64,000 bases of DNA from Streptomyces sp. LaPpAH-108 (GTDB taxonomy: Bacteria; Actinomycetota; Actinomycetes; Streptomycetales; Streptomycetaceae): assembly GCF_000373625.1 (NCBI RefSeq), contig NZ_KB891998.1, positions 394,638 to 458,637 of the forward strand, written 5' to 3'. The position numbers were made by a program, and so were the translations under genes. Below the pieces are notes generated by a model that was given only the letters and a program-made list of their open reading frames with translations, did not search any database and was not told the DNA's origin. Below are positions 12,743 to 19,463 of this stretch, piece by piece (position 1 is the stretch's first letter; every line of letters begins with the position of its first letter).

Positions 12743-13822
12743 TCAGCCGATCTGCGCCCCCGTAGCGGCCAGCGCCTCACTCACCGGCTGGAAGAACGTC
12801 TCCCCACCGGAGCTGCAGTCCCCACTACCCCCCGAGGTCAGCCCGACCGCACTGCTCCCGGAGAACAGCGACCCACCACTGTCCCCAGGCTCCGCGCACA
12901 CGTCGGTCTGGATCAGCCCGCTGACCGTCCCCTCGGAGTAGTTCACGGTCGCGTTGAGCCCGGTGACGGTCCCGCCATGGACCTGCGTGGTGGACCCGCT
13001 CCGGGTGACCTGCATCCCGACGGTGGCCTCGGCCACCCCGGTGATCGCCTGCGAGGACCCGTTGTACAGGTTCACCTCGCTCGGGTGGTCGACCGACCCG
13101 GTGTACTTCACCAGCCCGTAGTCGTTCCCGGGGAAGCTCGACGCCTCGTTCTGCCCGATCACGTTCCCGGACGAGTCCGACCAGCTGGAGATCGCCTCGG
13201 TGCAGTGCCCGGCGGTGAGGAAGTACGGCGCCCCGCCCTTGACGACGTTGAAGCCGAGCGAGCACCGCCCACCGGACCCGGTGATGGCGTCACCCCCGGC
13301 GATGAAGGGCTTGAACTCTCCCTTGGACCGCTTGAGCTGAGCGGTGTCGCCCAGCCCGTCCACGACCCGCCCCAGCTTGCCCCAGGCGGCAGCGGAGACG
13401 GTGCGGTCGGCCGTGACGACGACCTTGTTGCTGACGGGGTCGATCGCCCAGGAGGTCCCGGGAATGGTGGCCTGCTCCTTCAGCGTGGAACGAGCCCCGT
13501 CCAGCTCGGCGAGCGACCGCGTGACGATTCTGGCCCTGGCCCCGGCCGCCTCGACGGTACGGGCCGCGGAGCCGTCCAGCACGTTGACGACGAGGCTCTT
13601 GCCCTGGGCGTCGTAGTAACTGCCCGCGGCGGACGACCCGAGGTCACCCAGAAGGGAGGCCCCGAGCTTGTTGGCCGCCGGAGCGGACAGGACCTTCAAC
13701 TGCCCGGCGGAGCCGGTCTCGCTGGCGTTGGCGGTCTGCAGGGTGACACCCGCCGCGACGAGCGCGACAGCGGCACCGCCCGCGAGGGCGACCCGCCGCC
13801 TGGATATGTGTCGGTGCTTCAA
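12743..13822 (-). CDS. sprD: Streptogrisin D-like secreted serine protease
   Basis: A 359-residue preproenzyme of the S1 (chymotrypsin-like) streptogrisin family. The start is TTG 13822 ([15 protein letters not shown]), with GGAGG 8-9 nt upstream; no ATG or GTG fits. A signal peptide ends near ANA (residue 33). The propeptide runs to about 173 and the mature enzyme starts near IAGGDAI. The catalytic triad is His206 (TAGHC), Asp234 (GNDYGL) and Ser315 (EPGDSGGS). Cys pairs sit at RCSLGF/TAGHC and VCAEPG/GDCSSGG. The sequence follows S. griseus protease D closely (recalled), including the RRR signal peptide and the [12 protein letters not shown] tail. It degrades extracellular protein, and the long propeptide assists folding and blocks activity until removed. 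It is tandem with sprB, but a strong terminator separates the two. Confidence 0.93.
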
Positions 13823-14199
13823 CTCACGTCCTCCTGTGGGGGGTTCGGCCCGGAAAGTTGTGGGGACCTGCCGAGCCGGAAGGCTGGTTGACAGTCGCTC
13901 ACTCTTCCGAACCGCACAGCCGGCCCACAAGACCGACGCCGGACCGCCCCCGAACCCCACCCCTCTCCCCACACGCTGCCCCCAAAAGCCCCACAACCCC
14001 CACGCACCCTTCTCCGCTTCTCACCCCTCCCCCGAGGCGCCCCGCCACTCGACCCAAGCCCACCCCACGACCGCACCCCACCACGAACCACCCCCACCAC
14101 GACGCGCCCCCAAACAAAAACGGGCCCCCATGCGCGACACACACGCATGGGGGCCCGCCGAACCGCCCCGTCAGGGAAGAACGGCCCGCCGAAGACCCA
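13823..14199. other. Intergenic region between the two protease genes
   Basis: This stretch of 377 bp holds the sprB terminator at 14121-14157 and the upstream region of sprD. On the plus strand it is very C-rich (runs such as CCCCACC), which leaves long open frames with no codon-usage signature of a gene. No clear -35/-10 pair was recognised. The GGAGG Shine-Dalgarno of sprD lies at its left edge. Confidence 0.6.
14121..14157 (-). terminator. Rho-independent terminator of sprB
   Basis: A perfect 14-bp stem (CGGGCCCCCATGCG at 14121-14134 with its complement at 14144-14157) encloses a 9-nt loop. On the minus strand it is followed by TTTTTGTTT. It lies 43 bp past the sprB stop and is one of the clearest intrinsic terminators in the window. 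Confidence 0.92.
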
Positions 14200-15099
14200 T
14201 CAGGGGAGGGTCACCCCGTAGTAGCTCAACGCCTCGGTGACCGGCTGGAAGAACGTCGTACCGCCGGAGCTGCAGTTCCCGCTGCCCCCGGAGGTGAGCC
14301 CGTACGCGACGCTGCCCGCGTAGAGCGGACCGCCACTGTCGCCGCCCTCCGCGCACACCGTGGTCTGGATGAGACCGGAGACGATGTCACCGCCGCCGTA
14401 GTTCACGGTGGCGTTGAGCGCGGTGACCCGCCCGCTGTGCGTACCGGTGGTGGACCCGCGCCGGTACACGGTCGTGCCCACGGAGGGCGTCGCCGCGCTG
14501 GAGATGGTCTGGCTGCCCACCGCACTCGGGTGCGAGACCGAGGAGTTGGTGTAGCGCACCAGCGCGAAGTCGTTGCCGGGGAAGCTGTACCCGACGTTGG
14601 TGCCGAGCACGGTGCTGTGCCCGGAGTCGCTGTACCAGGTGGAGGCGACCTCACCGCAGTGCCCGGCGGTCAGGAAGTAGTACGTGCTGCCGCTGCGCAC
14701 GTTGAAGCCGAGCGAGCAGCGGTACTGGCCGCCGTAGATGGCGTCGCCGCCACTGATCAGCTTGTTGAACTTGCCGGGGGTGCGCTTGATGGTGAGCGCG
14801 TCCGCCTGCGATCCGGCCTGTTCCTTGATCTGGGCGATCTCGGCCGCGCTGACCGTGCTGTCGACGGTCACGACGACCTGGTGGTTCTTGCTGTCGACGG
14901 CCCAGGCGGTGCCCGGGATGTCGGACTGGCGAACGGAGTCGCTCGCCTGGGTGAGCTGGCTGGCGCTGAACGTGTGGGCTTCACTGGCGTTCGCGGTGGG
15001 GGCGGCGAACGCGGCAGCGGCCAGGAAGCCGGTGGCCACAGCGATCAGCCGGGTCCGTCTCGCAGCACCGCCGCGGGGAGTTGTGCGCTTGATCCTCAC
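14200..15099 (-). CDS. sprB: Streptogrisin B-like secreted serine protease
   Basis: A 299-residue preproenzyme, the same length I recall for S. griseus protease B. The signal peptide ([15 protein letters not shown] start, hydrophobic [11 protein letters not shown]) ends near ANA, residue 38. The propeptide ends at about 114, and the mature protein starts ISGGDAIY. The catalytic triad is His147 (TAGHC), Asp177 (GNDFAL) and Ser255 (EGGDSGGP). The primary-specificity loop and tail ([21 protein letters not shown]) fit the chymotrypsin-like A/B type, which cleaves after large hydrophobic residues. It is secreted and autoprocessed. It differs from its sprD-like neighbour by a shorter propeptide and GDSGGP instead of GDSGGS, so the pair probably arose by old duplication rather than recently. 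Confidence 0.95.
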
Positions 15100-15359: not shown

Positions 15360-17111
15360 TCACCCGTCCCCCAGTTCCCGCAGCACCACCCGCGCCACCG
15401 CGTCGTTCTGCCGGAAGGCCGCCCCGCCCGTGCGCGGCCGGGTGAACGCTCCCGGTGTCCGCGCGTCGGTGTACGGCCCGAGCGCGAACCGCCGGGGATG
15501 CGGGCGGCCGTCGCGCCCGAGGACCCGCCCGTCGACGGGGTCGACGCGCAGCAGCCCGTCGGCCGTCTCCAGCGCCTCGGCGTGCAGTTCGCGCAGCAGC
15601 GTGTCCCGGGCCCGTCCGACCGACGGATCGGGCAGCCGTGCCTCGACCAGGGCCCGTGCCTCAACCGAGAACCCCGGCACCGTGGGGGACGAGGCCCGGA
15701 ACACCCCGTCCTCGGCGGCGACTTCCATCTCCGCCCCCACGAACCGCAGCAGCCCGGCGCGGGACAGCGCGAGCAGCTGCCGCAGCCGGGGCCCGGGCGG
15801 CCCGGAGGCGAGATAGCTGAAGAACCCGTGCCACCAGGGCCCGAGATTCCCGAGCCGCACCAACTGCCCGTAGACGGACAGCAGTCCGAGGAAGACCCCC
15901 AAGTCAGCGCTGAAAGAAGAATCATGACGTCGCGTCAAGTCGTCGGAGATGTACGCCCGTAGCCCCTCCTGGAACTCCGCGTGCGAGCCGAACCGCACCC
16001 CTTCCAGCGGCCGGTCGAGAGCGGCGAGGTCCAGCCGGTCCCGGGCATCCGGCACCGCCGCCGCGACGAGTGCCCGTATCTCCTCCGCCCCGCCCGCCAC
16101 CGCGTACTTCTCCTCGAAGTCGGCCCATTCCATGGCCGTTCGCTCGGGATGGGCGGTGAACAGCCGGTGGTAGTAGGCGAATCCCAGCTCCTTCTCCACC
16201 AACGGCCAGATGTCACGCCGGAATTCGTATCCTTCGGGCCGTTCGAGCAGCGCCCGCACCTCCTCGGGCCCGAAGAAGCGGGGCAGCGGCGGCCGGGGCC
16301 CGGTCCAGTCGTAGCCGATCTTCGAGTGGTACGGCACACCGCGCCGCGAGCCGACGTACAGCACCGGCTCCCGCCCCGAGGGCACATACACGTGACCCCC
16401 CGAGCCGTCCTCCTCGTACCGCCCGCCCCGCCCCTCGGTGAGCAGCACCATCAGGTCGACGAACGCCAGCCCGAAGCCGCGTACGAGCACGGGCTCCCCC
16501 GGCGCGAGCGCGGACAGATCGCTGTCGGCCGTGAAGTCGGGCGGCAGATGGACGAGGTCGTGCGCGCGGGCGTAGGCGCTCAACCGCTGCTGCTCAGGGT
16601 CGAGTTCGGAGTCCAGGTGGCCGAGCGCGAGGACGACCAGGTCGGCGACGAGCGGTTCGGTACGGCCCTCCAGCCAGACCCGCTGGCGGCCGTCGGCCGG
16701 TCCGGTGACGCGCAGGGCCCGCCGGGGGTGGTGGTGGACGGTGATGCCGGGCGGCAGACCGGCCAGCGCCTGTTCGTAGACCCAGTGCAGATAGCGGCCC
16801 TGGATGCGCCGGTCGGCGAAGGTGCGGCCGTCGAGCCGGGCCCATTCGTGCAGGGTGGGCCCCTCGCGGACCGGGCCCTCCATCGTCACGGTCTCGTCGG
16901 TGAACATGGTGATGTCGGCGGCGTGCGAGTTCATCCACAGCAGCTCGGACTGCGCCTCGCGCCAGATGCGCCCGCCGCCCGGCGGATGCGGGTCGACGAG
17001 GTGGATGTCGATGCCCTGACCGCCGTACAGCTCCGGAGAGTTGGCGGCGATGCGCTCCAGGAGCCCGGTCGCTCTGGGCCCAGCCCCCACCACGACCAGT
17101 CGGCGCCTCAT
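15360..17111 (-). CDS. FAD/NAD(P)-binding protein (NAD_binding_9 type)
   Basis: A 583-residue flavoprotein. It opens with a dinucleotide fold RRLVVVGAGPRATGLLERIAAN and has IHLVDPHPPGGGRIWR at the end of the second strand, a layout typical of the uncharacterised FAD-NAD(P)-binding family. A second motif, LVVLALGHLDSE, lies near residue 180. No other domain was recognised. The start is ATG 17111, overlapping the permease stop by 4 nt (ATGA), so the two are translationally coupled; the frame remains open further upstream, but that part is antisense-like composition over the permease. Its place in an amino-acid transporter operon suggests it oxidises or reduces the imported compound. The substrate is unknown, and a sulfur amino acid is only an inference from the Cys leader of the divergent gene. 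Confidence 0.85.
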   Translation of the reverse strand: MRRRLVVVGAGPRATGLLERIAANSPELYGGQGIDIHLVDPHPPGGGRIWREAQSELLWMNSHAADITMFTDETVTMEGPVREGPTLHEWARLDGRTFADRRIQGRYLHWVYEQALAGLPPGITVHHHPRRALRVTGPADGRQRVWLEGRTEPLVADLVVLALGHLDSELDPEQQRLSAYARAHDLVHLPPDFTADSDLSALAPGEPVLVRGFGLAFVDLMVLLTEGRGGRYEEDGSGGHVYVPSGREPVLYVGSRRGVPYHSKIGYDWTGPRPPLPRFFGPEEVRALLERPEGYEFRRDIWPLVEKELGFAYYHRLFTAHPERTAMEWADFEEKYAVAGGAEEIRALVAAAVPDARDRLDLAALDRPLEGVRFGSHAEFQEGLRAYISDDLTRRHDSSFSADLGVFLGLLSVYGQLVRLGNLGPWWHGFFSYLASGPPGPRLRQLLALSRAGLLRFVGAEMEVAAEDGVFRASSPTVPGFSVEARALVEARLPDPSVGRARDTLLRELHAEALETADGLLRVDPVDGRVLGRDGRPHPRRFALGPYTDARTPGAFTRPRTGGAAFRQNDAVARVVLRELGDG

Positions 17112-17965
17112 CGGGCGGACCCCGTGCCGCGGGCGTAGTACTTCTCGACGTAGTACTGGCCGATGCCGAGCACCGAGGTGACGACGGTGTACCAGAGGGT
17201 GGCGACCATCAGCAGCGGGATCACCTGATAGGTGCGGTGGTAGATCAACTGGGCGGAGAAGAGCAGGTCGTTGACGGCGATGACGCTGACGATCGAGGTG
17301 CCCTTGAGGGTGCCGATGAGCATGTTCCCGGCGGCGGGCACGATGGAGCGCATGGCCTGGGGCAGCACGATGCGCCGCCAGCGCTGCCCGGGGGTCATCC
17401 CGAGTGCCTGGGCGGCCTCGGTCTGGCCGTGGTCCACGGAGAGGATGCCGCCGCGCACGACCTCGGCGGCGTAGGCGGCCTCGTGCAGGGTGAGCCCGAT
17501 GACGGCGACGGCGACCGGTCCGAGCAGGTTGACGGTCCTGATGCCGAACAGCTGCGGGTACAGCGCCCCGATGTTGAACCACAGCAGCAGCTGCACCAGG
17601 ATCGGGATCGACCGGAACAGCCAGACGTATCCCCAACTGACCGATCTCAAAACCGTGTTGGTGGAGAGCCGGAGGACGGCGAGCAGGGTGCCCAGGGCGA
17701 AGCCGAGGACCATCACCACGGCGGTGAGCCACAGGGTGAGCCAGAGGCCGCGCAGCACGGAGACCGAGGTGAAGTAGTCGGCGACCACGTCCCACTGGAA
17801 GGCCCGGTTGCGCAGCACCGAGTTGATCACGAGCCCGAGCAGCACCAGGACGAGGACGGCGGCGACCCGCTGGCCGTAGCGGCGGCGGGGGACGATCGTG
17901 GGGCCGTCCGGGCGCGCGGGCACCGGGGACGGGGCGGCGGGTTTGGCGAGGGTGTCGGATGACAT
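17108..17965 (-). CDS. Amino-acid ABC transporter permease (HisM/GlnP family)
   Basis: A 285-residue inner-membrane permease of the polar amino-acid uptake family. A cytoplasmic proline-rich N-terminus is followed by about five hydrophobic segments starting at AAVLVLVLLGLVINSVL. The family EAA loop that contacts the ATPase reads EAAQALGMTPGQRWRRIVLPQA at about residues 184-205. Only one permease and no ATP-binding protein are encoded nearby, so it presumably works as a homodimer with an ATPase from elsewhere. It is the first gene of a two-gene operon with the FAD protein and is divergent from the binding-protein gene at 18432. Confidence 0.9.
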   Translation of the reverse strand: MSSDTLAKPAAPSPVPARPDGPTIVPRRRYGQRVAAVLVLVLLGLVINSVLRNRAFQWDVVADYFTSVSVLRGLWLTLWLTAVVMVLGFALGTLLAVLRLSTNTVLRSVSWGYVWLFRSIPILVQLLLWFNIGALYPQLFGIRTVNLLGPVAVAVIGLTLHEAAYAAEVVRGGILSVDHGQTEAAQALGMTPGQRWRRIVLPQAMRSIVPAAGNMLIGTLKGTSIVSVIAVNDLLFSAQLIYHRTYQVIPLLMVATLWYTVVTSVLGIGQYYVEKYYARGTGSAR

Positions 17966-18065
17966 GCGGGACTCCGTGACACGTCGGACCCGACGCGCAC
18001 TGCCCGCACTCCGCCGCGCTCGAAAGCGCGGTCACGGCCGAGCCCCTCAGCAGGGCCGTCCTTCG

Positions 18066-18096
18066 AGAGTACGTCGCCGTTTCCCTGCGTTGTCAA
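18066..18096 (-). promoter_or_regulatory. Probable promoter of the permease-FAD operon
   Basis: On the minus strand a perfect TTGACA (18091-18096) is followed after 17-19 nt by CGTACT/TACTCT. The predicted transcript starts near 18060, leaving an untranslated leader of about 95 nt. That leader contains a 7-bp hairpin with a UUCG tetraloop (18014-18031). Confidence 0.6.
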
Positions 18097-18132
18097 GGGT
18101 GTCCGGACTGTGAGCGGCCCGTCTCAAGTCGG

Positions 18133-18161
18133 TTGACGGGCCAACCGGATGCCTGTTCCAC
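18133..18161 (+). promoter_or_regulatory. Possible promoter of the leader peptide and binding-protein gene
   Basis: TTGACG at 18133-18138 with a weak -10 (TTCCAC at 18156-18161) at 17-nt spacing would start transcription just before the leader-peptide ATG at 18169. That arrangement would make the leader peptide nearly leaderless. The -10 match is poor, so confidence is moderate. Confidence 0.45.
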
Positions 18162-18168
18162 TTGGCCC

Positions 18169-18240
18169 ATGCGCCCACAGCAGTGGCTGGTCACCCGCTC
18201 CCACATCGACTTCGGTCGCGTGTGGTCCGCGTCCTGTTGA
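18169..18240 (+). CDS. Cysteine-ending attenuator leader peptide
   Basis: A 23-codon ORF contains WLVTRSHIDFGRV and ends SASC followed directly by TGA. Actinobacteria carry a family of short leader peptides with the pattern (R)xHIDLxRV...C in front of sulfur-assimilation and cysteine-related genes. There, translation through the terminal Cys codons senses cysteine supply and sets transcription or translation of the gene downstream (known from mycobacterial polycysteine leaders). Here it sits 191 nt before the binding-protein start, with the intervening 18241-18431 being pyrimidine-rich and free of genes. The peptide is too short for most gene finders. The single Cys is a minimal version of the family. 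Confidence 0.78.
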   Translation: MRPQQWLVTRSHIDFGRVWSASC

Positions 18241-18431
18241 GCTGACCCCCTGCGCGCCCGCGCCCGTTCCGGGCGCCTCCGCGTTCCCCGCCTTCCTTTC
18301 CGGTCCTCTTTCCGGCCTTCACGCGCGCGCCCTGCCTCCGCACTCTCCCCTCCCCTCGCGCCCTGCCGTCGCACCGCCTTCCTCTCTCGCGTCCGGCCCG
18401 TCCTCCCCTTCTTCCAGGAGACCGCTTCCCG

Positions 18432-19463
18432 ATGCCCGCGCCCACGCGCCACCTCGCCCTGCCCAAGCACCGCCTCGTCCTGCCCCCGCGCCGCCTCCCC
18501 GCGCCCACGCGCCGCCTGTTCGCGCCCAGCCGCCGTCTCCTCGCCGCCTTCGCCGCCCTCACCTCCGCCGCGCTGCTGCTGACCGCCTGCGGCTCGGGCT
18601 CGCCCGGCTCCTCCGGCGCTTCCGGCGCCCGCGCCGCGGCCGGGTCCGACGCGATCCCCACCACCGACGTCGTCTCCCGGATCGCGAAGGACCCGGCCGC
18701 CGCGAAGCTGCTGCCGTCCGGGGTCACGCACCTGACCGTCGCGGTCGCCGTGGGCGGCACCCCGCCGGGCACCACCTACCTCGCCGACGGCACGACCCTG
18801 ACCGGCCAGGACGTGGACATCACCCAGGCCGCCGCCAAGGTCCTCGGCATCAAGCTGAAGATCGAGCAGGCGAGCTTCGAGGCGATCCTCCCGGCACTGG
18901 AGAGCGGCAAGTACGACTTCGGCGCGAGCAACTTCGGCGTCACCGACGAGCGCCGCAGGACGATCGACTTCGTCACCTACGTCAACGACGGGCAGGGCTT
19001 CGTCACCCGCAAGGACAGCGAACTCGCCAAGATCACCGATCTGCGGCAGCTGTGCGGCCTGAACGTCGCGACCGGCGCCGGGACCACCTTCGAGGCCACG
19101 CTGGAGCAGAACAAGCACGTGTGCGTGGACGCGGGCAAGAAGGCGTACCACGTACAGACGTACGCCGAGCAGAGCGCGATCTGGTCCTCGATCCAGCAGG
19201 GCCGCAGCGATGTCGTGATGTCCACGATCAACGGCCTGCGCTACGCCGTCGCCCACCAGCCGGGCCTGAGGTTCCTCAACGAGTACCACCGGCTCGACGT
19301 CGGCTTCGCCTTCAAGAAGGGCACCCCGCTGGCGCCCGCCTTCCGCGCGGCGGTGAACCGGATCATCGCCGACGGGACGTACGCCCGCATCCTCAAGAAG
19401 TGGGGGACGACGGGCTCCGCGATCAGCACCTCGCGGATCTCGCCACCGGAGCTGAAGAACTGA
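18432..19463 (+). CDS. Amino-acid ABC transporter substrate-binding lipoprotein
   Basis: A 343-residue periplasmic-type binding protein. The lipobox LLLTAC places the lipidated Cys at residue 53, after an unusually long basic N-terminus with repeated RR/P motifs (RHLALPKHRLVLPPRRLPAP), so the true start may lie further in. The mature part follows the solute-binding family 3 pattern: LTVAVAVGGTPPGTTYLADG, DVDITQAAAKVLGIKLKIEQA, FGASNFGVTDERRRTIDFVTYVNDG and a C-terminal AFRAAVNRIIADGTYARILKKWG. It delivers a polar amino acid to the divergently encoded permease. The Cys leader upstream suggests cystine or another sulfur compound, but the ligand cannot be read from sequence. Confidence 0.92.
   Translation: MPAPTRHLALPKHRLVLPPRRLPAPTRRLFAPSRRLLAAFAALTSAALLLTACGSGSPGSSGASGARAAAGSDAIPTTDVVSRIAKDPAAAKLLPSGVTHLTVAVAVGGTPPGTTYLADGTTLTGQDVDITQAAAKVLGIKLKIEQASFEAILPALESGKYDFGASNFGVTDERRRTIDFVTYVNDGQGFVTRKDSELAKITDLRQLCGLNVATGAGTTFEATLEQNKHVCVDAGKKAYHVQTYAEQSAIWSSIQQGRSDVVMSTINGLRYAVAHQPGLRFLNEYHRLDVGFAFKKGTPLAPAFRAAVNRIIADGTYARILKKWGTTGSAISTSRISPPELKN

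Follow-up and report, generated by a model that had tools for sequence, protein, structure and literature searches.

The gene of an amino-acid type solute-binding protein in Streptomyces sp. LaPpAH-108 is preceded by a short leader peptide ORF which, as judged from its sequence in relatives, is a real and strongly conserved control element. We propose, at a probability of about one half, that it is a cysteine-sensing leader on a leaderless transcript, on which ribosomes would stall at a UGU codon at cysteine shortage and thereby protect the RNA from Rho-dependent termination. Positions refer to the window, i.e., the whole stretch of 64,000 nucleotides that was analyzed. The locus comprises the following features.

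15360 to 17111, reverse strand: FAD/NAD(P)-binding protein (PF13454) of the divergent operon, by domain match
17108 to 17965, reverse strand: divergent amino-acid-type ABC permease, by domain match
18133 to 18162, forward strand: putative promoter from the profile of 61 loci, i.e., TTGACG (18133 to 18138), a 17-nt spacer and TTCCACT (18156 to 18162)
18169 to 18240, forward strand: leader peptide ORF of 23 codons, MRPQQWLVTRSHIDFGRVWSASC, with stop codon TGA, by translation and conservation
18432 to 19463, forward strand: solute-binding protein of family 3 (amino-acid type lipoprotein; PF00497, E 6e-28), the presumed regulated gene

Translation and coordinates reproduced exactly what a preliminary description of this DNA had reported, i.e., 23 codons, a terminal Cys codon, here TGT, directly before TGA, and a distance of 191 nt from the leader stop to the start of the binding-protein ORF at 18432. 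The same description held that the binding protein alone cannot tell the substrate. This is borne out, as the PF00497 match and the closest solved structures by sequence identify it as a generic family-3 amino-acid binder only.

The leader ORF among relatives

We searched 199 genomes of the genus for the binding protein and obtained 89 places besides the window's own, with 54–87% identity. A leader was found within 900 nt upstream of the binding protein in 60 of these, and two further leaders lie at about −913 and −971 from the binding-protein match. When the 89 places were split by score, the leader was present in 62 of the 63 closer orthologues (E 4.6e-117 or better, 61–87% identity) versus none of the 26 more distant ones (E 8e-104 or worse, 54–62%). 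The gap between leader and binding-protein match ranged from 67 to more than 900 nt across loci. On the side of the divergent permease, a leader was seen at only one of 61 loci, as a loose match. Fifty-three leaders have 23 codons; they comprise 38 distinct DNA versions with a nearly invariant peptide, most of them following the consensus M-[HRYN]-x-Q-Q-W-L-V-[TK]-R-S-H-I-D-F-G-R-V-W-S-[SAC]-S-C. A synonym-degenerate core pattern was found in 171 of 293 genomes of the order, and the reversed pattern scored zero in every genome listed. In a scan of named genomes, a similar pattern occurred, among the matches listed, in Kitasatospora, Micromonospora, Plantactinospora, Saccharothrix and Solihabitans.

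Short ORFs are common, and 13 ORFs of at least 20 amino acids overlap positions 17900–18600, so that a chance reading frame had to be considered. However, the near-complete presence among the closer orthologues, the many distinct DNA versions and the constraint on start, Cys and stop rule it out, and we regard this explanation as having a negligible probability.

In a profile of the 61 upstream regions, TTGACG near −35 and CCTGTTCCACT were strongly conserved, and CCTGTTCCACTTGGCCC directly 5' of the ATG was common to these regions. Inspection of the same 61 regions revealed no Shine-Dalgarno consensus before the leader ATG, and a generic sigma-70 scan gave no match at the putative promoter. 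From this sequence pattern, the transcript likely starts with the A of the ATG or a neighboring base, i.e., it would be leaderless.

At nine of the 63 orthologous loci, e.g., L108, a GNAT acetyltransferase gene is located between leader and binding-protein gene. The leader may control both genes at these loci.

Sensor codon and hairpin within the ORF

The leaders share a fixed layout, H-x-D-x-x-R-x5-Cys, and the window ORF has both the motif and a Cys six residues after the Arg. Two parts of the ORF are treated here.

18201 to 18225, forward strand: RNA hairpin inside the ORF, CCACAU-CGAC-UUCG-GUCG-n-GUGUGG, from its fold and frozen synonymous sites, with one arm at 18201 to 18210, the UUCG loop at 18211 to 18214 and the other arm at 18215 to 18218 plus 18220 to 18225
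18235 to 18237, forward strand: TGT (UGU), the sensor codon for Cys, six residues behind the conserved Arg

For the window's HIDFGRVW class, we compared 92 distinct 42-nt cores, leaving out L182, where the contig ends inside the leader. Cys occupied the position Arg+6 in 92 of 92 cores, although the search pattern did not demand it, and its codon was TGT in all 92. The reading frame was kept as well, so that frame and terminal Cys, the conservation of which the preliminary description had made its test, are both preserved. Among 146 HIDFGRVW leaders, partly from overlapping loci and hence not all independent, the sensor codon was TGT in every one. The wider family was sampled with 68 of 134 family matches outside the own genome, mostly the best-scoring ones, from 14 other genomes. 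Here, the Arg+6 residue was Cys in 66 leaders and Ser in two, and TGT encoded 64 of these 66 Cys residues. The remaining Cys codons between match start and stop were mostly TGC (53 of 68; TGT 15 of 68).

Usually, Cys is encoded by UGC, and TGT makes up 14.5% of 76 Cys codons in 21 window genes. Within the HIDFGRVW class, this usage also holds for Cys codons behind the sensor (TGC 40 of 50, TGT 10 of 50). Those before it are, like the sensor, mostly TGT (29 of 39), hence the UGU preference in this class is not confined to the sensor codon. Both tRNA-Cys genes found in the own genome carry the anticodon GCA (69 tRNA places; eight long ones were left out and one at C8:58322 was not called by ARAGORN), and UGU would then be read by wobble pairing. 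Rare, slowly read codons sharpen attenuators, as in leucine leaders.

The distance from motif to UGU is constant while third codon positions vary between subclasses. By analogy with TnaC, this argues that the peptide itself may matter in the exit tunnel. In TnaC, the leader peptide of the E. coli tna operon, tunnel-motif residues are held at a fixed distance from the stall codon, and C-rich RNA follows the stop. The fixed geometry makes codon counting and nascent-peptide arrest directly testable against each other: a change of UGU to UGC should shift the threshold, and changes of His, Asp or Arg should eliminate an arrest while leaving a hungry-codon stall intact. As an alternative use of the conserved codon we considered an RNA polymerase pause element at UGU. 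It was rejected on the basis of the pause consensus, since G hardly ever follows UGU (3 of 66).

Three leaders combine H-x-D-L-x-R-V with a Ser at the sensor position, namely one of the own genome (C12:120730, in L149), L358 and L367. They may sense something else or be decaying.

The stretch from His to Trp is frozen at synonymous sites throughout the 92 cores (CAC 92, ATC 91, GAC 92), third positions that the search patterns had left open. GGT was used in 90 of 92 cores versus 9% in window genes, and GTG in 92 of 92 versus 40%. The Arg-17 codon is in contrast free and uses all four wobble bases, with CGA in 26 of 92 cores versus 3% in window genes. The third base of this codon, 18219, is the sole bulge of the hairpin. 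Frozen synonymous sites next to a free Arg-17 wobble are thus the pattern expected of a hairpin in which that base is bulged out. A 30-nt fold of the hairpin has −13.1 kcal/mol (z −2.7), and when the 27-nt stretch was resampled synonymously 5000 times, only 65 versions folded as well. When the whole ORF is folded, the minimum-energy structure favors another pairing, whereas the centroid retains the hairpin. The outermost pair is C-G in 82 cores, U-G in eight and A-G in two, and inner mismatches are A-C in two cores and A-G in one; as the pairs hardly vary, no covariation test is possible.

Against synonymous resamples, mean z was −2.26 for HIDFGRVW, −1.62 for HVDLCRL and −0.84 for HVDLCRQ leaders, with at most 12 sequences per group, and other subclasses ranged between −0.9 and +1.4, many of these groups being a single sequence. 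These values led us to discard the idea that H-x-D-x-x-R is family-wide the translated face of an RNA hairpin, since most other subclasses show none. A long-range pairing of the CAGCAG codons with the stop, suggested by the minimum-energy fold, was likewise discarded: shuffles fold as well as the whole ORF (z −0.07), and CAGCAG is missing from other N-termini of the subclass. If true, a dual-coded hairpin would be a rare case of leader-peptide synonymous sites frozen by RNA structure.

The nearly invariant inverted repeat, CCACATCGAC-TTCG-GTCGnGTGTGG, could also be read as the DNA operator of a repressor or activator just past the start site, with the reading frame being secondary. However, one free base shifts its half-sites against each other, as a bulge does in a hairpin. 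The peptide motif stands at equal distance from UGU also in family leaders that have no palindrome, and frame, start and Cys are retained in the cores examined. We hence consider an operator very improbable.

Among leaders with the motif HVDLCR (L308, L311, L312, L316, L320, L328, L330 and L342), a ThiS-family sulfur-carrier gene was confirmed after L308 only. In the leader before the ThiS-family gene, a rare Arg codon AGG follows CTGTGC and yields CCTG-TG-CAGG. Judged by the modeled folds (mean z −1.62), this subclass possibly has a hairpin of its own.

RNA after the stop codon and mode of control

Three features were assigned between the leader stop and the binding-protein gene.

18241 to 18253, forward strand: conserved C-rich element directly after the stop, GCTGACCCCCTGC, a candidate Rho-binding segment, from the alignment
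18241 to 18431, forward strand: C-rich, G-poor leader RNA, a candidate rut region, from its composition
18254 to 18276, forward strand: G+C-rich hairpin pairing 18260 to 18266 with 18270 to 18276, with an alternative 5' arm at 18254 to 18260 and a pyrimidine-rich tail behind it, from its fold

In an alignment of 50 loci, from which 11 of the 61 leader loci were left out because of a long gap or a variant leader, 10 of the 13 columns of GCTGACCCCCTGC were at least 90% conserved. The skew (C−G)/(C+G) in the 150 nt downstream of the leader was 0.36 ± 0.06 at 61 loci, compared with 0.02 ± 0.16 for 205 script-called upstream regions of other genes at the same loci. Values of 0.30 and 0.27 were obtained for 141 HIDFGRVW leaders and 68 family leaders, respectively. 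A search of 17960–18460 gave no U-tracted terminator, and Rfam gave nothing over threshold in 17900–18700, the best match being nuoG RNA (E 1.6, 15.6 bits versus 33).

We base the model on what is observed, i.e., conservation, fixed geometry, the choice of UGU, the constraint on the hairpin within the ORF, the bias of C over G and the sulfur regulon described below, and infer the following course. A ribosome would translate the 23-codon ORF on a leaderless transcript. H-x-D-x-x-R would enter the exit tunnel as the ribosome meets, at fixed distance, the single wobble-read UGU. When charged tRNA-Cys is short, the ribosome would stall there, and the conserved peptide motif would probably deepen or time the stall. 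The stalled ribosome would occupy the final codons and the beginning of the C-rich RNA that follows the stop, shielding this RNA from Rho, so that RNA polymerase would continue into the binding-protein gene. With plentiful cysteine, the ribosome would reach UGA and leave, and the C-rich RNA would let Rho terminate early, perhaps aided by the hairpin at 18254–18276. The hairpin within the ORF could add a second layer, perhaps a pause keeping polymerase and ribosome in step.

Stalling with relief from Rho is favored by the presence of the leader in 62 of 63 closer orthologues, by Cys encoded as TGT in 92 of 92 cores, by the bias of C over G, by the lack of a U-tracted terminator, and by a predicted Shine-Dalgarno accessibility that hardly depends on the stall. 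The C-rich, G-poor RNA adjoins the leader stop, as in a Rho-dependent, tna-like mechanism. Its bias is a signature of Rho use and not proof, and related loci are not independent. Moreover, the hairpin after the stop leaves room for hairpin-dependent termination.

Such a transcription attenuation would use the hairpin at 18254–18276 and its pyrimidine tail as a terminator gated by the position of the ribosome. The search for a U-tracted terminator in 17960–18460 gave none, yet a hairpin after the stop recurs in relatives, and Streptomyces terminators may lack U-tracts. At 53 of the 61 loci, the first base of the best perfect stem falls at +13 to +41, in a scan that covers starts 6–61 and always returns some best stem. 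Across 30 loci, the best hairpins after the stop had a median of −17.0 kcal/mol versus −10.6 for one shuffle each. RNAalifold predicted nine pairs in 18 loci, two of them with changes on both sides, and by eye the seventh stem pair of the window class is G-C, C-G or T-A depending on the locus. However, RNAalifold found no pairs in 20 loci of the window's own hairpin class, where MAFFT does not align the 3' arms. A second stem test gave only a modest excess (mean z 1.20 versus controls of 0.89 and 0.24), with a flat simple stem test (−0.02) in the WSAAC subclass. A ribosome at UGU is estimated to reach about +8 after the stop, i.e., it would fall short of the arm at +13. We regard hairpin-dependent attenuation as unlikely. 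The preliminary description had called for conservation of both the ORF and a downstream hairpin: conservation of the ORF stands, and the hairpin recurs in relatives, but aligning the window's group yielded no consensus for it.

WSAAC-type HIDFGRVW leaders (25 sequences) are found mostly before SsuD-like genes. Many of them continue after the stop with GGGCCG-tctga-CGGCCC, a pyrimidine tail and then CTCGG...CGGGCCGAG. These elements could fold into hairpins that exclude each other, as in a classical attenuator.

Mycobacterial cysteine leaders have been described as translational attenuators that control translation and not termination (PMC9031893, PMC13236596). A leader of this type in the window would open, by the stalled ribosome, an mRNA structure hiding the downstream ribosome-binding site. 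We predicted Shine-Dalgarno accessibility of the binding-protein gene at those 36 of 61 loci that had both a Shine-Dalgarno match and less than 330 nt between leader and gene; the other 25 lacked one or the other. The Shine-Dalgarno bases are predicted to pair with the leader at a mean probability of 0.17, and accessibility gained more than 0.1 on stalling at five of the 36 loci. Its mean, however, changed little, from 0.136 to 0.166 with a ribosome at UGU (0.146 with a control mask), and in the window from 0.201 to 0.199. Sequestration of the ribosome-binding site by the leader was hence dropped as unsupported on average by this prediction. Also, leader and binding-protein match are 67 to more than 900 nt apart, and in some loci a GNAT gene intervenes. 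We consider translational attenuation quite unlikely here, and retain stalling with protection from Rho as the preferred reading. For mycobacterial cys leaders, Seliverstov et al. 2005 (PMC1262725) offer a Rho-dependent, tna-like mechanism as a weak prediction.

Sulfur-related genes and known leader families

We searched the own genome with the NCBIfam leader models and found ten further leaders of the Cys-leader kind. Sulfur-named genes follow five of them, three belong to a transporter-monooxygenase cluster, a flavin reductase follows another, and nothing was recognized after the tenth. The genes behind them encode, in single cases, SfnB (above its cut-off) together with an SsuD-like monooxygenase; a member of the nitrite/sulfite reductase family (below cut-offs) together with PAPS reductase; an ABC permease together with a binding protein of NMT1-like type and a monooxygenase of luciferase type; cysteine dioxygenase; rhodanese; and the flavin reductase. 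Three leaders belong to a cluster on contig 12 with an amino-acid-type ABC transporter and a luciferase-type monooxygenase. Among the genes after the leader at C9:288130, no sulfur gene was recognized.

Other loci were surveyed with 147 HIDFGRVW leader records, for which the first gene was called by script; 27 records gave no gene. The first gene was a binding protein of the window type in 38 of 147 and an SsuD-like monooxygenase in 35, one representative of which matched TIGR03565 below cut-off (E 1e-60). Other luciferase-type monooxygenases followed in seven (two clusters), SsuE in two (representative over cut-off), a GNAT protein in ten and, by eye, a peptide-type binding protein in three. 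For 13 records, the assigned gene was about 1.7 kb away and the script had missed a nearer one. The remaining 12 had other genes, some without evident sulfur link.

At 53 of 63 orthologous loci, the divergent cluster contains a luciferase-type monooxygenase, a representative of which matches NtaA/DmoA below cut-off. The window locus lacks this part, and related permease, ATPase, binding-protein and monooxygenase genes (44–71% identity) are located on contig 12 with the three leaders. This cluster (L149, own contig 12, 106000–122500, reverse strand) encodes a permease, an ABC ATPase, a family-3 binding protein and a luciferase-type monooxygenase, and its three leaders lie no more than about 5 kb apart. 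It seems to be the portion of the transporter cluster that the window locus lacks.

Leaders of this family thus lie upstream of sulfur genes; for the window gene itself, the link is one by association. The sulfur reading is well supported by sister leaders before SsuD-like monooxygenase, SsuE, SfnB, PAPS-reductase and cysteine-dioxygenase genes, among others, and from these gene neighborhoods the transporter likely takes up an organosulfur compound. If true, a poorly annotated transporter gains a role, i.e., uptake of a sulfur-containing amino-acid-like compound at cysteine shortage, and Streptomyces gains a whole cysteine-responsive regulon read from leader peptides.

The window ORF matched NF042936 (leader_Ms4527A, Cys-rich leader peptide) at E 2.8e-5 with 23.6 bits, below the curated cut-off of 45, whereas NF042934 (cis_reg_atten, putative leader peptide) left it unmatched up to an E-value of 1. 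In each of 15 genomes of the genus, NF042934 itself detected 4–16 leaders, as compared with no leader in any of 14 control genomes (E up to 0.01). The window ORF shares with both models' leaders the layout H-x-D-x-x-R-x5-C and the sulfur-gene neighborhoods. In contrast to them, it has a single terminal Cys at the stop and the invariant UUCG hairpin, which was not seen in most other subclasses. By motif, position and regulon it appears to belong to the Cys leaders, though it scores below the curated cut-offs. The NF042936 match and the sister leaders before sulfur genes also agree with the preliminary assignment to actinobacterial Cys leaders linked to sulfur assimilation.

Cys leaders of such layout are already known, i.e., from the NCBI curators' NF042934 and NF042936 and from mycobacteria. 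Canestrari et al. 2020 reportedly described polycysteine leaderless short ORFs in mycobacteria. The window ORF resembles such ORFs in that it is short, probably leaderless, ends with Cys and has sulfur genes downstream. With respect to leaderless initiation, the promoter spacing and the missing Shine-Dalgarno consensus fit, the start site being predicted. The differences are a single UGU without a Cys run, a strong peptide motif and the hairpin within the ORF; within the 23-codon class there are at most two Cys, and these are not adjacent. Moreover, leaders of the window type show little of the ribosome-binding-site gating expected of the mycobacterial attenuator, as predicted for the 36 of 61 loci above (gain above 0.1 in 5 of 36).

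The likeness to TnaC is one of features: the distance from motif to stall codon, a presumed stall at the very end of a short ORF, and C-rich RNA past the stop. The signal would differ, however, being the lack of an amino acid at a hungry codon instead of free tryptophan. Seliverstov et al. 2005 (PMC1262725) name the tna leader as an analogy for cys leaders. The Cys leaders in the passages considered share Cys codons near the stop, the lack of a conserved terminator and pyrimidine-rich RNA between leader and gene; unlike the window ORF, they come from Mycobacterium, Propionibacterium and Bifidobacterium, not Streptomyces, and have Cys runs and a non-conserved polyY stretch. Prior art may be contained in Lyubetsky et al. 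2014, the title of which, in the reference list of PMC4833913, concerns sulfur metabolism and PF00480/PF14340 proteins. In the open PMC literature, a scope that mostly excludes subscription papers, we found no description of the UGU bias, the fixed motif-to-UGU geometry, the hairpin within the ORF or the HIDFGRVW leader.

Taken further, the leaders would form an actinobacterial family of cysteine-sensing arrest peptides rather than mere counters of codons, in which H-x-D-x-x-R precedes a wobble-read UGU by six residues and gates the stall. The 4–16 leaders per Streptomyces genome would make up a sulfur regulon run by ribosomes, HIDFGRVW would be dual-coded with the UUCG hairpin, and readthrough would be Rho-dependent. 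We put this combined reading forward tentatively and find it somewhat doubtful as a whole.

Near the leader locus, on the reverse strand, we also noted an alpha-lytic-type serine protease with trypsin domain and prodomain (14200–15099) and a second protein with the Pro_Al_protease prodomain as its sole match (12743–13996). A protease resembling, by eye, the one at 14200–15099 neighbors 23 of the 63 related loci.
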